This document shows, in pieces, positions 1,406 to 6,707 of a DNA stretch of 6,707 nt. The stretch spans positions 1-6,707 of the forward strand of contig CAOKJI010000102.1 of the NCBI GenBank assembly GCA_948468495.1, given 5' to 3'. Position numbers and translations under genes: made by a program. The notes below the pieces were generated by a model. The model saw only the letters and a program-made list of their open reading frames with translations, was not told the DNA's origin and did no database searches. Position 1 is the first letter of the stretch, and every line of letters starts with the position of its first letter. Source of the DNA: an uncultured Dorea sp. (GTDB lineage Bacteria > Bacillota_A > Clostridia > Lachnospirales > Lachnospiraceae).

Positions 1406-2902
1406 ATGGGGAAAGAGATTACATACCGGCATAATGTTATGGGGATTCATTCACTGGACGCTTTTTTGAACGTAAAAGGCGGATTCTGCCAAGGGCGGCG
1501 GGATGTATATTTTATTAGAGCTCTTGGCGGAGGGAGAGAGCTCGGGAAGGAGATTCTGGCTGTAGATGAGAAAATGGAACTTGAAATGCAGAAGAACAGG
1601 CTGTTCTATACCAGAGTGTCCAGACTTTTGCAGTTAACTTCGTTGGAAGATGCGGACTTTTATCAACAACAGTATGCGCGTTTCAAGACGGAGGAAAAGC
1701 TGCGGCTTAAGAATTTGAAGAATCATGAGACATTTGAAAGGACGCTGGGAAAAGCATGTTTAGAAGTATTGGATAAATACCGATTGATTAAAAATACTGT
1801 GACAGAGTCTATGGAGAGAAATTTTGCTGTGAAGCTGCTCTACTGGACGGACTGTGTGCTGGGGGAAGCATTAGCTGACTGGAATGAACGGAAATGCTTT
1901 AAAATACTGGCGGATAATGTGTACAAAGAACAGGAGTATTTGTTTTATTTCATGCTTACCTTAATCGGATGCGATGTTTTGCTGCTGGAATGCCGGGAAG
2001 ATATCGCGGCGCCGGACGTTATCAAGGCCTTGTCCGGTGAGTTTCGGCTTGGCGAATACCATATGCTTCCGATACCGGAGTATAGGCCCGTCAGGAAAGG
2101 GCTGCCCATGCCGGAAGCAAGAACCTCACAGCCGAAGCCTGCGGCAGCAGGTTTATCGCCACAAAGCCAGGGACGGCGGGAGATAAAAACTTCGCCGAAT
2201 CGAAATGGAATGATGCAGGCAAATAAGGGCGGAATCTGCCGGAATCCGCAGGGGCAGAAACCGGTTTCATCAGTAAAAGCGTCTCCAGCCCAACTCCCGC
2301 GGCATTTACAGCCTCCTATATCCGGGAATGGGGAAAAGAGTTTTGAAGAGTTAGCGCTTCTGGCCTCCTCGATTGTTATGATCGAGGTACACGACCGAAC
2401 CGGACGGGCGGTATCCACCGGGTCGGGGATTATGATTGGAAAAGACGGATATATTCTTACGAATCATCATGTGGCGGGAAAAGGCAGTTTCTTTGCAGTT
2501 CGGATAGAGGATGAAGACGCTATTTACCGCACGGACGAGATGATTAAATATAATTCAGTTCTGGACCTTGCCGTAATACGAATTGGCAGAATGCTGAAAC
2601 CGCTGCCGGTATACCAGGGCGGCAAAAAGCTTGTAAGGGGGCAGAAAGTGGTGGCCATCGGCAGTCCGTTAGGGTTGTTTAATTCTGTTTCGGACGGAAT
2701 AATTTCCGGATTCCGTAAGATTGATTCGGTGGATATGATTCAGTTTACGGCGCCGATTTCTCATGGAAGCTCCGGAGGCGCAGTGCTGAATATGCAGGGC
2801 GAAGTAATAGGCATCAGTACGGCGGGCATTGACCAGGGGCAGAATTTGAATTTGGCGGTAGACTATCAAAGTATCAATCTGTTTGTCCGGGGGTTTGTAT
2901 AG
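1406..2902 (+). CDS. YceG-like domain fused to HtrA/trypsin-like serine protease
   Basis: This 498-residue protein has three parts. Residues about 8-220 resemble one repeat unit of the neighbouring YceG-like protein: SLDAFL then RRDVYFIRALGG near the start, KLLYW near 143-147, and ILADN followed by IGCDVLLLECRED at 187-199, parallel to ILYCG and AGCDVILLQPRGD in the neighbour. Residues about 225-310 form a Pro/Gln/Ser/Arg-rich linker of low complexity. Residues about 311-498 are a chymotrypsin-fold S1/HtrA-like protease with His355 in TNHHV, Asp387 in LDLAVIRI and Ser456 in HGSSGGAV, so the triad looks intact. There is no signal peptide, transmembrane segment or PDZ domain, so I infer a cytoplasmic enzyme; substrate unknown. 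The gene is divergent to the lyase and sits 157 bases before the YceG-like/telA/terD operon, which has its own promoter. Confidence is high for the protease and good for the YceG-like homology, which was judged by eye. Confidence 0.85.
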   Translation: MGKEITYRHNVMGIHSLDAFLNVKGGFCQGRRDVYFIRALGGGRELGKEILAVDEKMELEMQKNRLFYTRVSRLLQLTSLEDADFYQQQYARFKTEEKLRLKNLKNHETFERTLGKACLEVLDKYRLIKNTVTESMERNFAVKLLYWTDCVLGEALADWNERKCFKILADNVYKEQEYLFYFMLTLIGCDVLLLECREDIAAPDVIKALSGEFRLGEYHMLPIPEYRPVRKGLPMPEARTSQPKPAAAGLSPQSQGRREIKTSPNRNGMMQANKGGICRNPQGQKPVSSVKASPAQLPRHLQPPISGNGEKSFEELALLASSIVMIEVHDRTGRAVSTGSGIMIGKDGYILTNHHVAGKGSFFAVRIEDEDAIYRTDEMIKYNSVLDLAVIRIGRMLKPLPVYQGGKKLVRGQKVVAIGSPLGLFNSVSDGIISGFRKIDSVDMIQFTAPISHGSSGGAVLNMQGEVIGISTAGIDQGQNLNLAVDYQSINLFVRGFV

Positions 2903-3059: not shown

Positions 3060-5324
3060 ATGGACAGAAAGAGAGTTCAGAGCCTGGATGATTTTTTTGT
3101 AGAATTGAGCAGGCGCAGGGAAAGAGGAGTATATTTTTACAGGATGAATTGTATTTCGGATGATATCCGTGGATTCATATATCGGTACTATGACGCCGCC
3201 CGCAGAACGGGCGTAATCGTGGAAGGGAAGATTGCGAATCCTACTGAAGAGAATCTGTCTTATTATAGCGAGATGATGGGGCTGGAGTTTCGGTTCAATG
3301 AGGAATTTATCTCATCAGCCCTGAAAAAATGGCTTCCAAGAATGAACTTAGAACAGAGGGGATTGGTGGCTCATGCGATTTATGAGACTTTAAAGGAACT
3401 AAAAGAATCCGGCAAGACAGATAATATGCTGAAGAATGCATATATTAAGTTTATGTGCTGGTTGTACTATAAATTTGAACGGATTGTAAACCGTCTGGGA
3501 CAGGACGAGGTTCCCAAGATACTGTACTGCGGGACAATCAGCAGTTATGAATTGATGTTTATTACGATTCTGTCGGATGCGGGATGCGATGTAATTCTTC
3601 TGCAGCCGCGCGGAGATGCGGACTATCGGAAACTGGACCCAAATTCAGAAAAATCCATCGAATATGACATGTCGAAGGGCAGGGAATTTCCAAAAGATTT
3701 TTCGCTGAAGGCGCTGCTTGGGGAAGCTGAGGAGGCTGAACGGAATCGGAAGATATTCGGAACCGGGTCGGGTATTAGCAACTGTACAAACGCCTGGGCG
3801 GAAGGAAAAGGCCTTTCAGATATTCTTCAGCCGCCGGCGGCCAGAGGAGACCGGGAGGATATGTTTTATAACTGCTACTGCAGGATAAGCGGCGTTTGGG
3901 ACAAGCTTGCCTATGTGAATGAGCTGTATCAGTTTTATCTGTCTCTGACAAATGAGAAAAGAAAAGTCGTTATCGTAAATGGGGAAGTGCCGAAGCCGAC
4001 GCCGGATGAAATTGCGCGGATCCACAGAGGGAATTACAGCAGCGTCAGCCAGATGCTTGCCGGCCTGCAGGGAAATATACAGCATCCTGCAAGCGAGCAG
4101 CTAAGAGGCCTGTTGGTGCGGGCATTTGCGGAGGTTATGACGGAAGAGTCGGAAAAAGACGGGATGAGCAGGAATCGCCTGCTGAATAAAGCAGTGTATC
4201 TGCTCTGCTGGATAAATCGGTATAAGGACAGGCTGTTTGGGAATTGGAAACTGCCGCAGACGGGGTGCTTTATTTACATGGGCGGCTGTAAAGACGCGAA
4301 TGAAGCGCTGCTGATGAAGTGCTTTGCCAGGCTTCCCGTGGATGTGCTGATATTATGCCCGAATCTGAATACGCCGTGCTGTCTGGAGGATTCTCTGTTA
4401 TATGAGATTCACCATCCGGTTTCGATGGCGGTGAATCAGTTTCCTGAGCAGAACGCGCAGCTCCATATCGGAACGGCCGCCTATCATGCGGAGCGGGAAC
4501 TGGATTCGCTGTTGTACAATGATTCGGGAATGTTCCGGGACAGGCAGTTTGCAAAGGCGAATACAGTCACGCTGCGGACGATGGACAGGGAGATTGGGAT
4601 TCTATGGAACAATGATTTGAAGTTTCGGCCTAATTTCAGTACGGTAGACGGAGTTGTGAACCTGCCGGTTATATTTGCTAAGATGTCCGGCGTGAAAGAC
4701 CGGAATATTGAGAATTACTGGATTTCTATTAAGAAGCTTATGACTCCGGATACGCTGGTGGTGGATCAAGCGCCTTTGATTACCCCGGTAACGCCGAACC
4801 CTATGAAAATGTACGCGGCGGAATTTTTTAAAAACGGAAAGCTTATGAGGAGCAGGATTAAGAATCATCCGGCTTATCAGTATGGTTTTTTAAGGGAAGA
4901 GATGCAGGAGCATATTCTGGACAAGATTGAAGCGCTGATTGAGCAGAGACTCATCCGGGGAACATTTGAAAATGGGACGGAATATACCATCGTTTCTGTT
5001 GCGCTGAATCTGCCGAAAGAAGCTGCAAGATTGATTCAGAAGTTTGATTTTACAAAAAAGAACCCAAAACTGATTTATATAAATGTATCGGAGATTCTGG
5101 TTTCCCTGGAGGATTCGATTTACGCCGCTTTTTTAAATCTGCTTGGGTTTGATGTGCTTTTCTTTATTCCAACCGGATATAATATTGAGAAGTATTTCAA
5201 TAAAAAGCTAATGGAAGAACATCAGGCCGGGGAGTATGTGTACGATTTGCAGGTTCCGGACTGGGAGAGGGTTCCGTTAACTGTGCATACGTCATGGCGT
5301 GATAAACTATTTAAGAGAGGGTAG
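3060..5324 (+). CDS. yceG: YceG-like family protein (Ter-associated, B. subtilis YceG type), three repeat units
   Basis: This 754-residue soluble protein is recognised as YceG-like from its sequence style and its position directly before telA and terD. It is unrelated to the E. coli lytic transglycosylase once called YceG. I see three divergent units. Unit 1 (about 5-190) has RGVYFYRMNCIS, FMCWLYYKFE, and ILYCG followed by AGCDVILLQPRGD. Unit 2 (about 268-440) has FYNCYCRISG, LLCWINRYKD, and FIYMGG followed by PVDVLILCPN. Unit 3 (about 530-715) has VIFAKMSGV, and LIYIN followed by LGFDVLFFIPTG. Each ends in a strand, glycine turn, helix and strand pattern (hydrophobic-G ... E ... L ... G-x-DV-hydrophobic-P), suggesting an alpha/beta fold. 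No transmembrane segment or known catalytic motif is apparent. Biochemical role unknown; family context places it in the Ter stress response. It seems longer than the Bacillus protein (about 540 residues from memory), which an extra unit would explain. The next start follows the stop by 4 bases. Confidence 0.83.
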   Translation: MDRKRVQSLDDFFVELSRRRERGVYFYRMNCISDDIRGFIYRYYDAARRTGVIVEGKIANPTEENLSYYSEMMGLEFRFNEEFISSALKKWLPRMNLEQRGLVAHAIYETLKELKESGKTDNMLKNAYIKFMCWLYYKFERIVNRLGQDEVPKILYCGTISSYELMFITILSDAGCDVILLQPRGDADYRKLDPNSEKSIEYDMSKGREFPKDFSLKALLGEAEEAERNRKIFGTGSGISNCTNAWAEGKGLSDILQPPAARGDREDMFYNCYCRISGVWDKLAYVNELYQFYLSLTNEKRKVVIVNGEVPKPTPDEIARIHRGNYSSVSQMLAGLQGNIQHPASEQLRGLLVRAFAEVMTEESEKDGMSRNRLLNKAVYLLCWINRYKDRLFGNWKLPQTGCFIYMGGCKDANEALLMKCFARLPVDVLILCPNLNTPCCLEDSLLYEIHHPVSMAVNQFPEQNAQLHIGTAAYHAERELDSLLYNDSGMFRDRQFAKANTVTLRTMDREIGILWNNDLKFRPNFSTVDGVVNLPVIFAKMSGVKDRNIENYWISIKKLMTPDTLVVDQAPLITPVTPNPMKMYAAEFFKNGKLMRSRIKNHPAYQYGFLREEMQEHILDKIEALIEQRLIRGTFENGTEYTIVSVALNLPKEAARLIQKFDFTKKNPKLIYINVSEILVSLEDSIYAAFLNLLGFDVLFFIPTGYNIEKYFNKKLMEEHQAGEYVYDLQVPDWERVPLTVHTSWRDKLFKRG
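5315..5321 (+). promoter_or_regulatory. Ribosome binding site of telA
   Basis: GAGAGGG at the very end of the YceG-like coding region lies 7 bases before the ATG at 5329. It supports this ATG over an upstream in-frame GTG at 5299. The site overlaps the preceding gene, so translation of the two is probably coupled. Confidence 0.65.
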
Positions 5325-5328
5325 AAAG

Positions 5329-6498
5329 ATGGGACTTGATTTTAGCAAAATGCCGGCGGCCGCGCCTTCGGCAGCGACAGTGGAACATGAAATTGAAACA
5401 GTACAGCCGTTTGATATTGCCGCGGACAGAACGCAGATGAACGAGACCTACGTGGGATCTCAGGAAGTGGACGCGCTGGTCAGTACAATTGAAGTGAATA
5501 ATTTAGAGACGATCGTGTCTTTCGGAGCCGAGGCGGCTGAGGAGGTTTCTAAGGCGTCCGATATTGTGCTTAACAGCATGAATATGCGTCAACTTGATGA
5601 TTCCAGCGAGATGCTGACGGAATTATCCAAGATTATGTCAAAGTTCGACATTGATGAGATACGGGATGACAAAGGTATTTTTGGAAAACTGTTCACCAAT
5701 TTGCGCAAGCAGTTAGATAAGATTCTGCAGAAATATCATACCATGGGCGACGAGGTGGATAAGATCTATGTTCAGCTTAAGCAGTATGAAAGCGAGATTA
5801 AGCAGGCGAACAGAAGGCTGGACCAGATGTTTGACGCTAATGTGAATTATTATCATGAGCTTGTAAAGTACATATTGGCGGGAGAACAGGGATGTAAGGA
5901 ATTAGAGGCATATATTGCCCAGAGGCAGTCTGACTTTGAGGCGACCGGGGACAGTTCCATTCAGCTTGAACTTGCAAGTTTAAACAATTCTTTGATGATG
6001 TTAGAGCAGCGCACGCAGGATTTGCGCACGGCGGAGAATATTGCCATACAGTCGATTCCGATGATTAAGACCATGGAGTTCAGCAACATGAATCTTGTGC
6101 GTAAGATTAATTCGGCCTTTATTGTTACCCTGCCGGTGTTTAAGCAGGCGCTTGCCCAGGCAATTATGCTCAAGAGACAGAAGATTCAGGCGGAATCGAT
6201 GGCGGAACTGGATAAGAAGACGAACGAGATGCTGATTAAGAATGCAAGGAATACGGTGGAACAGTCCAAGATGACTGCTAGATTGGCGTCTGGAAGTTCG
6301 ATTAAGATTGAGACGTTAGAGACAACCTGGAGGACCATTGTCAACGGTATCGACGAGACCAGGGCAATCCAGGAGAACGCGAGAAAGCAGCGCGTGGACG
6401 ACGCCGCCAGATTAGAGACGATTAAGCAGGAATTTCTGAATACATACGGGGGAACCCGGAAAAATAACGGCTCCAATACAGCAGGAGCAAGATTTTAA
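5329..6498 (+). CDS. telA: TelA family toxic anion resistance protein
   Basis: This 389-residue protein is a typical TelA/KlaA family member, equivalent to B. subtilis YceH. It starts with the clostridial-type MGLDFSKMP and has a short Ala/Pro-rich tail before a long, mostly helical body with heptad-like charged segments at about 90-165 and 280-320. Family landmarks are QSIPMIK at 241-247, NSAFIVTLPVFKQAL at 261-275 and LETTWRTIVNGIDETR at 330-345. There is no signal peptide or membrane span. The family is associated with resistance to tellurite and with stress from toxic anions and cell-envelope agents; its molecular mechanism is not settled. It begins 4 bases after the YceG-like stop and is followed by terD after 21 bases, so all three share a transcript. 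The Ser/Gly/Asn-rich C-terminal end (GSNTAGARF) is probably disordered. Length and motifs give no sign of damage. Confidence 0.95.
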   Translation: MGLDFSKMPAAAPSAATVEHEIETVQPFDIAADRTQMNETYVGSQEVDALVSTIEVNNLETIVSFGAEAAEEVSKASDIVLNSMNMRQLDDSSEMLTELSKIMSKFDIDEIRDDKGIFGKLFTNLRKQLDKILQKYHTMGDEVDKIYVQLKQYESEIKQANRRLDQMFDANVNYYHELVKYILAGEQGCKELEAYIAQRQSDFEATGDSSIQLELASLNNSLMMLEQRTQDLRTAENIAIQSIPMIKTMEFSNMNLVRKINSAFIVTLPVFKQALAQAIMLKRQKIQAESMAELDKKTNEMLIKNARNTVEQSKMTARLASGSSIKIETLETTWRTIVNGIDETRAIQENARKQRVDDAARLETIKQEFLNTYGGTRKNNGSNTAGARF

Positions 6499-6519: not shown

Positions 6520-6707
6520 ATGCCAATTAATTTATCGAAAGGACAAAAGGTTGACCTGACAAAGAAAAATCCGGGACTGAAAAGTATTATGGTGGGACTT
6601 GGATGGGATGTGAACGCATTTGATTCCGGCGCGGATTTTGATTTGGACGCCGCCGCGTTTATGCTGGGGGCAAACGGCAGGTGTCCAACCGAGAAAGAAT
6701 TTATCTT
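6520..6707 (+). CDS. terD: TerD family protein, N-terminal part (cut by window edge)
   Basis: The first 62 residues are present and then the window ends. MPINLSKGQKVDLTK followed by LKSIMVGLGWD is the characteristic TerD/TerE/CABP start, and DFDLDAAAFML (residues 39-49) carries the acidic cluster used for calcium binding in the family. TerD proteins are soluble beta-sandwich calcium binders, about 190 residues in full. They act with TelA-type and TerC-type partners in resistance to tellurite and other stress. It is the third gene of the operon, and further terD-like or terC genes often follow outside such a window. The paralogue (TerD, TerE or TerZ type) cannot be decided from this part alone. 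Confidence 0.93.
   Translation, partial: MPINLSKGQKVDLTKKNPGLKSIMVGLGWDVNAFDSGADFDLDAAAFMLGANGRCPTEKEFI

Follow-up and report, generated by a model that had tools for sequence, protein, structure and literature searches.

The 6,707-nucleotide window (the whole stretch of uncultured Dorea sp. DNA analyzed here) encodes a 498-amino-acid (aa) protein in which an N-terminal YceG-like unit is fused, through a low-complexity linker, to an HtrA-fold serine protease. The gene (positions 1406 to 2902, + strand) lies beside genes of the Ter (tellurium-resistance) stress system, which is poorly understood and of which it is an optional part, and the fusion is conserved across gut Lachnospiraceae and their kin. 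We put at about even the chance that the protein is an accessory Ter protease, with the YceG unit gating or positioning it to cut one Ter-response protein. The summary of the Ter system in PMC7824862 comprises signal synthesis, ligand sensing, and membrane and sub-membrane parts, and names no protease. We found no published description of a YceG-protease fusion; the main Ter survey (Anantharaman et al. 2012), which may list it, lay outside the comparison. Parts of PMC7159879 and PMC7231995 give wider context.

Organization of the locus

The genes in the window are ordered C-C bond lyase (- strand), fusion, YceG, TelA, and the start of TerD. The frame of the Ter-associated, CitE-like C-C bond lyase (137 to 1213, - strand; PF15617, 288.6 bits) is extended at its N terminus and has a hydrophobic stretch in this extension, and since many relatives are about 320 aa long, its true start is probably internal to 1213. 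The fusion frame is open throughout. Its ATG at 1406 is preceded by AGGTG (by eye), and a database protein (P0001) that is 99% identical to the fusion is also 498 aa long; an alternative GTG start at 1388 would add six residues (the 504-aa reading, the numbering of which is used below where stated). A promoter-like TTGACA-17-TATGTT (1321 to 1349, + strand), a consensus match only with 10 of the 12 consensus bases, stands ahead of the gene.

Downstream on the + strand follow a stand-alone YceG of 754 aa with three YceG_bac stretches (3060 to 5324; 409 bits; model m5b0726921de9), TelA (5329 to 6498; PF05816, 331 bits), and TerD (6520 to 6707; PF02342, 73 bits), the 3' part of which extends beyond the window end. 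Because a further promoter-like site (2950 to 2978) precedes the YceG gene, a separate operon for YceG is plausible; this site too is a consensus match only, and the window holds seven such sites in total, against 3.2 in shuffled sequences.

The YceG model has no significant match among solved structures, so that its fold gives no functional lead and the YceG ligand cannot be read from it. Residues 471 to 497 of YceG (18 of the 27 positions identical in at least 85% of 49 aligned rows; pLDDT <50 at 475 to 497) likely form a functional loop. We considered this segment as a cut site for the protease and rejected it: by eye, YceG is similar there in a genome without the fusion (L093), and the segment is thus not specific to the fusion.

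An intact HtrA-type protease with neither PDZ domain nor visible anchor

The protease domain (2336 to 2899, + strand; S1C type) matches Trypsin_2 with an E value of 5.7e-25. The original prediction of an intact trypsin/HtrA-like triad is borne out by alignments, in which His355 (2468 to 2470), Asp387 (2564 to 2566), and Ser456 of the HGSSGG motif (2771 to 2773), all on the + strand, align with the HtrA triad. The full triad is present in 199 of 201 aligned proteins (the window protein, 80 loci, and 120 database hits), the two exceptions being a truncated protein and one with a His-to-Gln replacement. Over 12 pairs, dN/dS is 0 to 0.14 for the protease, 0.11 to 0.375 for the N-terminal domain, and 0.16 to 0.98 for the linker; purifying selection on the protease half is strong.

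The fusion shares its fold and its His-Asp-Ser triad with the HtrA/DegP/DegS (S1C) proteases but, unlike them, has no PDZ domain and no visible signal peptide. Its best score against the NCBIfam HtrA equivalogs is 111.2 bits, far below the degP_htrA_DO cut-off of 416.2. As had been proposed, no PDZ match appears in the fusion at E values up to 1 in Pfam, the same library that detects PDZ domains in ordinary HtrA proteins at two of the loci (L092 and L105). The proposed lack of an export signal and of a membrane anchor also agrees with hydropathy, by which the protein has no hydrophobic N-terminal segment and is predicted to be cytoplasmic and unanchored. A hydrophobic 19-mer (mean hydropathy of at least 1.6) falls within the first 60 residues in only 1 of the 201 proteins. 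The window protein has a single such stretch, starting at residue 178 (mean, 1.75); in the model it builds a helix-strand within the YceG core and is no anchor. A stretch of this kind occurs somewhere in 45 of the 201 proteins.

In the predicted structure, pLDDT drops below 50 in loops 458 to 461 and 481 to 485, beside the active-site Ser (residue 462 here), and in loop 427 to 431 (504-aa numbering). We take the low-confidence loops near the active site to be the HtrA activation loops, and the model thus hints weakly at a resting protease of the HtrA type.

The N-terminal domain is by sequence a single, divergent YceG unit

The N-terminal domain (1406 to 2098, + strand; about residues 1 to 231) is related to YceG according to Pfam and profile-profile alignment. 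YceG_bac (PF14266) matches residues 69 to 204 of the 504-aa reading with 34.5 bits (cut-off, 25). For profile-profile alignment we used 59 fused N-terminal domains (58 of 78 locus stretches plus the window) and 49 stand-alone YceG proteins (that of the window and 48 from a list of 55). Against whole YceG, hhalign placed the fused domains in the register of unit 1 (probability, 96.2; E = 2.7e-9; 191 columns). Against the individual units, E was 7.7e-11 for unit 1, 5e-7 for unit 2, and 0.004 (over 12 columns) for unit 3. The homology to YceG that had been noticed by eye is therefore confirmed, with unit 1 as the closest counterpart. YceG units 1 and 2 align with each other at an E value of 1.1e-7, so that the fused unit resembles unit 1 no less than unit 2 does. 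The order of strands and helices in the N-terminal domain model is close, not identical, to that of YceG units 1 and 2 (compared by eye).

In Firmicutes, YceG (PF14266) is encoded together with TelA and TerD; its unit 1 aligns collinearly with the N-terminal domain. YceG consists of three units, whereas the fusion carries one, far more divergent and attached to a protease. The mean distance across 52 loci is 0.63 for the fused unit versus 0.41 for stand-alone YceG, and many YceG-invariant residues have no counterpart in the fused unit. YceG units 1 and 2 do share Asn139, Trp147, Glu177, and Asp190-Val with the fused domain.

The fused domain had also been proposed to recruit the protease to the ligand or partner of YceG. 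Covariation between the N-terminal domain and YceG, taken as a mark of a shared partner, lends this no support: given TelA, their partial correlation is 0.026. The corresponding values are 0.283 for the protease half and YceG given TelA and 0.297 for the N-terminal domain and TelA given YceG.

Among 21 database proteins of 0.55 to 1.75 times the length of the N-terminal domain, none is clearly an intact stand-alone version of it, and most end in the linker or within the protease. The ends of P0127 and P0130 coincide with the domain border, and another two (P0122 and P0128) continue into other sequence. In P0128 (414 aa), some 200 residues that match no Pfam domain follow the fused N-terminal domain; the protein is either a further fusion or the product of a chimeric contig. 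Among these four proteins there may be a rare stand-alone or re-fused form of the N-terminal domain.

A variable linker with a recurrent motif

The linker (2099 to 2335, + strand), which had been described as disordered, is likewise predicted to be so by the model, with pLDDT <50 across residues 237 to 313 (504-aa numbering). Among 140 linkers delimited by a regular expression, the length ranges from 22 to 198 aa, and the sequence is variable too. A new observation of this analysis is that linkers of relatives share the motif P-V-[KR]-V-x-[IL]-P-E-R, after which come basic residues; the sequence around it is otherwise unconserved. The motif expression, composed after inspection of the linkers, initially matched 28 of the 140 linkers (shuffle mean, 0.08), with 61 of the 201 proteins left out because the delimiting expression missed their linker borders. 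In a non-redundant set of 85 of all 201 aligned proteins (<70% identity; at least 420 aa), it matched 37 linkers, against a mean of 0.13 and a maximum of 2 in 500 shuffles. Leave-one-out scoring with a threshold of 1% finds 52 of these 85 linkers positive and 33 without the motif; the window linker (score, -2.6) is one of the latter. At least two copies occur in 9 of the 85, with a maximum of four. At a threshold 2 bits higher, the motif was found at 59 places in 40 kaa of fusion frames versus 9 in 527 kaa of other frames, and at none in the YceG, TelA, TerD, and C-C lyase frames.

Other linker sequences were also seen. At L004, L005, and their kin, a QPERIRPTKP-like tandem repeat occupies the linker instead of the common motif, and a second motif, [QKR]RT[IV][IVL][NDS], occurs in 12 of the 140 linkers (shuffle mean, 0.05; e.g., P0098 and P0078).

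A suggestion that the linker is a site of self-cleavage found no support: linkers differ in both length and sequence, and the shared motif, in linkers that have it, places Pro directly after the hydrophobic residue. That hydrophobic residue, a would-be P1 residue ahead of Pro, raises the idea that the motif acts as an uncleavable pseudosubstrate strand. Alternatively, a partner might dock onto the motif as a beta strand; the occurrence of tandem copies would favor this version.

Distribution of the fusion

A protein search reported 4,365 relatives, a set that will include other proteases. Of the best 120, 117 align across at least 92% of the fusion and 101 carry a precomputed YceG_bac mark; both Pfam marks are present on 100, so both domains are already annotated in domain databases on these. 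Scanning a single genome of each species gave 343 places that code for a relative by the criterion of the scan, of which the best 80 were retained. Thirty-nine of these loci are titled Lachnospiraceae, and the others are mostly titled as gut Firmicutes (e.g., Dorea, Roseburia, Eubacterium, and Ruminococcus). Three are titled Aeromonadales (L042), Succinivibrionaceae (L048), and Gastranaerophilales (L062), which reflects either transfer beyond Firmicutes or mislabeled bins. In evenly drawn genomes, the fusion was found in 1 of 118 from the class (namely, the center genome of the sample) and in 12 of 250 from the family of that genome (at E = 1e-60). In one of these 12 (G367), the protease half alone is visible, at a contig end.

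Linkage to the Ter system

Among the 80 loci, YceG was found at 60, TelA at 56, TerD at 52 (53 with a full-length query), and the C-C lyase at 49, many loci being limited by contig ends. Where at least 8 kb was available on each side (37 loci), YceG, TelA, and TerD were each found at 31 and the C-C lyase at 29. The fusion thus recurs beside telA and terD; the remaining six long-flanked loci carry it without YceG, TelA, or TerD nearby. At 7 of the 80 loci (6 by a stricter script, L036 having one TerD-like gene still further along), the fusion is found past the TerD genes, indicating that its association with Ter survives rearrangement.

This linkage extends to whole genomes. All 12 fusion genomes tested contain a stand-alone YceG, 9 of them picked because no YceG lies near the fusion; in one of the 12, the fusion itself was missing from the PF14266 matches. 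B. subtilis, examined as a control, also gave a PF14266 match. Of the 250 family genomes, 25 carry YceG, and these include all 12 fusion genomes, in each of which YceG has a frame of its own (cut at a contig end in one). The chance of this overlap under independence, ignoring relatedness, is about 5e-14. The fusion is absent from the other 13 YceG-bearing genomes, and the Ter system can therefore function without it.

Further gene families found near the fusion (identified by a Pfam test of one member per family) include P-type cation ATPase (47 of the 80 loci; median position, about 6 kb past the fusion), StiP/PELOTA (42 loci), PRTase_2/TRSP (39), HAD (37), rhomboid (27), and ATP-grasp_Ter (9). 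The rhomboid protease gene (PF01694; e.g., L036:3420-4010), of which none was seen in the window, lies between the fusion and YceG at 23 of its 27 loci and was considered as a partner of the fusion. It also stands beside YceG at 4 of 13 loci from fusion-negative genomes (L081, where the contig begins 604 bases before the rhomboid gene, L089, L090, and L091), and among the 12 family fusion genomes it was found at the loci of only 2 (L096 and L103), with none at L002 (genome G001). The rhomboid gene thus goes with YceG, not with the fusion, and we rejected it as a partner.

Possible roles of the fusion protein

In the reading that we favor, a cytoplasmic HtrA-fold protease would have had its usual membrane anchor and PDZ domain replaced by one fast-evolving YceG unit on a flexible linker. 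Such a replacement suggests a Ter-specific input for a cytoplasmic protease. The YceG unit would most likely sense, or dock onto, something that the Ter biosynthetic module makes or binds; its engagement would release or position an otherwise resting protease, which would then cut one specific Ter-response protein. In a more detailed version, Ter would have a proteolytic output arm, namely, a soluble HtrA-type protease that is switched by its YceG unit acting as a sensor, with the linker motif as a control or docking element; this version is tentative and less likely than not.

Combinations of this kind have partial precedents. One TerD-trypsin protein, YP_273108.1 of Pseudomonas syringae, is mentioned in PMC2605481, where it is described as not functionally characterized. 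Likened by that description, it too has a Ter domain ahead of a trypsin-family protease, the domain being TerD and not YceG. PMC12799240 presents nuclease-protease pairs of Hachiman, AVAST, Lamassu, and DRT, the trypsin-like proteases of which are likewise grafted onto sensing systems. The same account has these proteases fused to several defense enzymes and activating a nuclease, which would fit a defense-type effector resembling the HamA, Avs1a, and LmuA fusions, one that senses infection and then either activates an enzyme partner or causes cell death. The PADLOC profile RT-Protease_XI also matches the fusion (E = 3.6e-17), but the match is confined to the protease half (profile positions 333 to 500 of 506), and Pfam finds no reverse transcriptase domain in the fusion. 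Moreover, the described proteases are N-terminal and have a nuclease gene just upstream, whereas the protease here is C-terminal, the upstream gene is the divergent C-C bond lyase, and the window contains no MBL-fold nuclease gene in that place. On this evidence, we regard a defense effector as unlikely.

The residues that the fused domain has in common with YceG units 1 and 2 would agree with a unit that retains a part in Ter biosynthetic chemistry, as enzyme or carrier, the protease merely traveling along, for instance, for turnover of complexes of YceG or of TelA. The greater divergence of the fused unit and its lack of counterparts to many YceG-invariant residues speak against this idea, and we consider it quite improbable. 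Quality control is a common role of HtrA-type proteases, and a general cytoplasmic quality-control protease might be co-regulated with stress genes by happenstance. The fusion, however, lacks a PDZ domain and co-occurs with YceG, and ordinary HtrA proteins with a hydrophobic N-terminal segment and a PDZ domain are encoded both in a fusion genome (L105) and in a fusion-negative one (L092); a quality-control role therefore seems very unlikely.

That the fusion is real and has been kept by selection in related bacteria suggests that proteolysis is one output of the Ter system, genes of which are spread across bacteria. If the accessory-protease reading is true, a gated protease tied to YceG would give Ter a covalent, irreversible output, and finding the protein that it cuts would make the pathway testable. 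It would also mean that a periplasmic-type HtrA protease has been rewired for the cytoplasm by swapping its PDZ domain and anchor for a different sensor.
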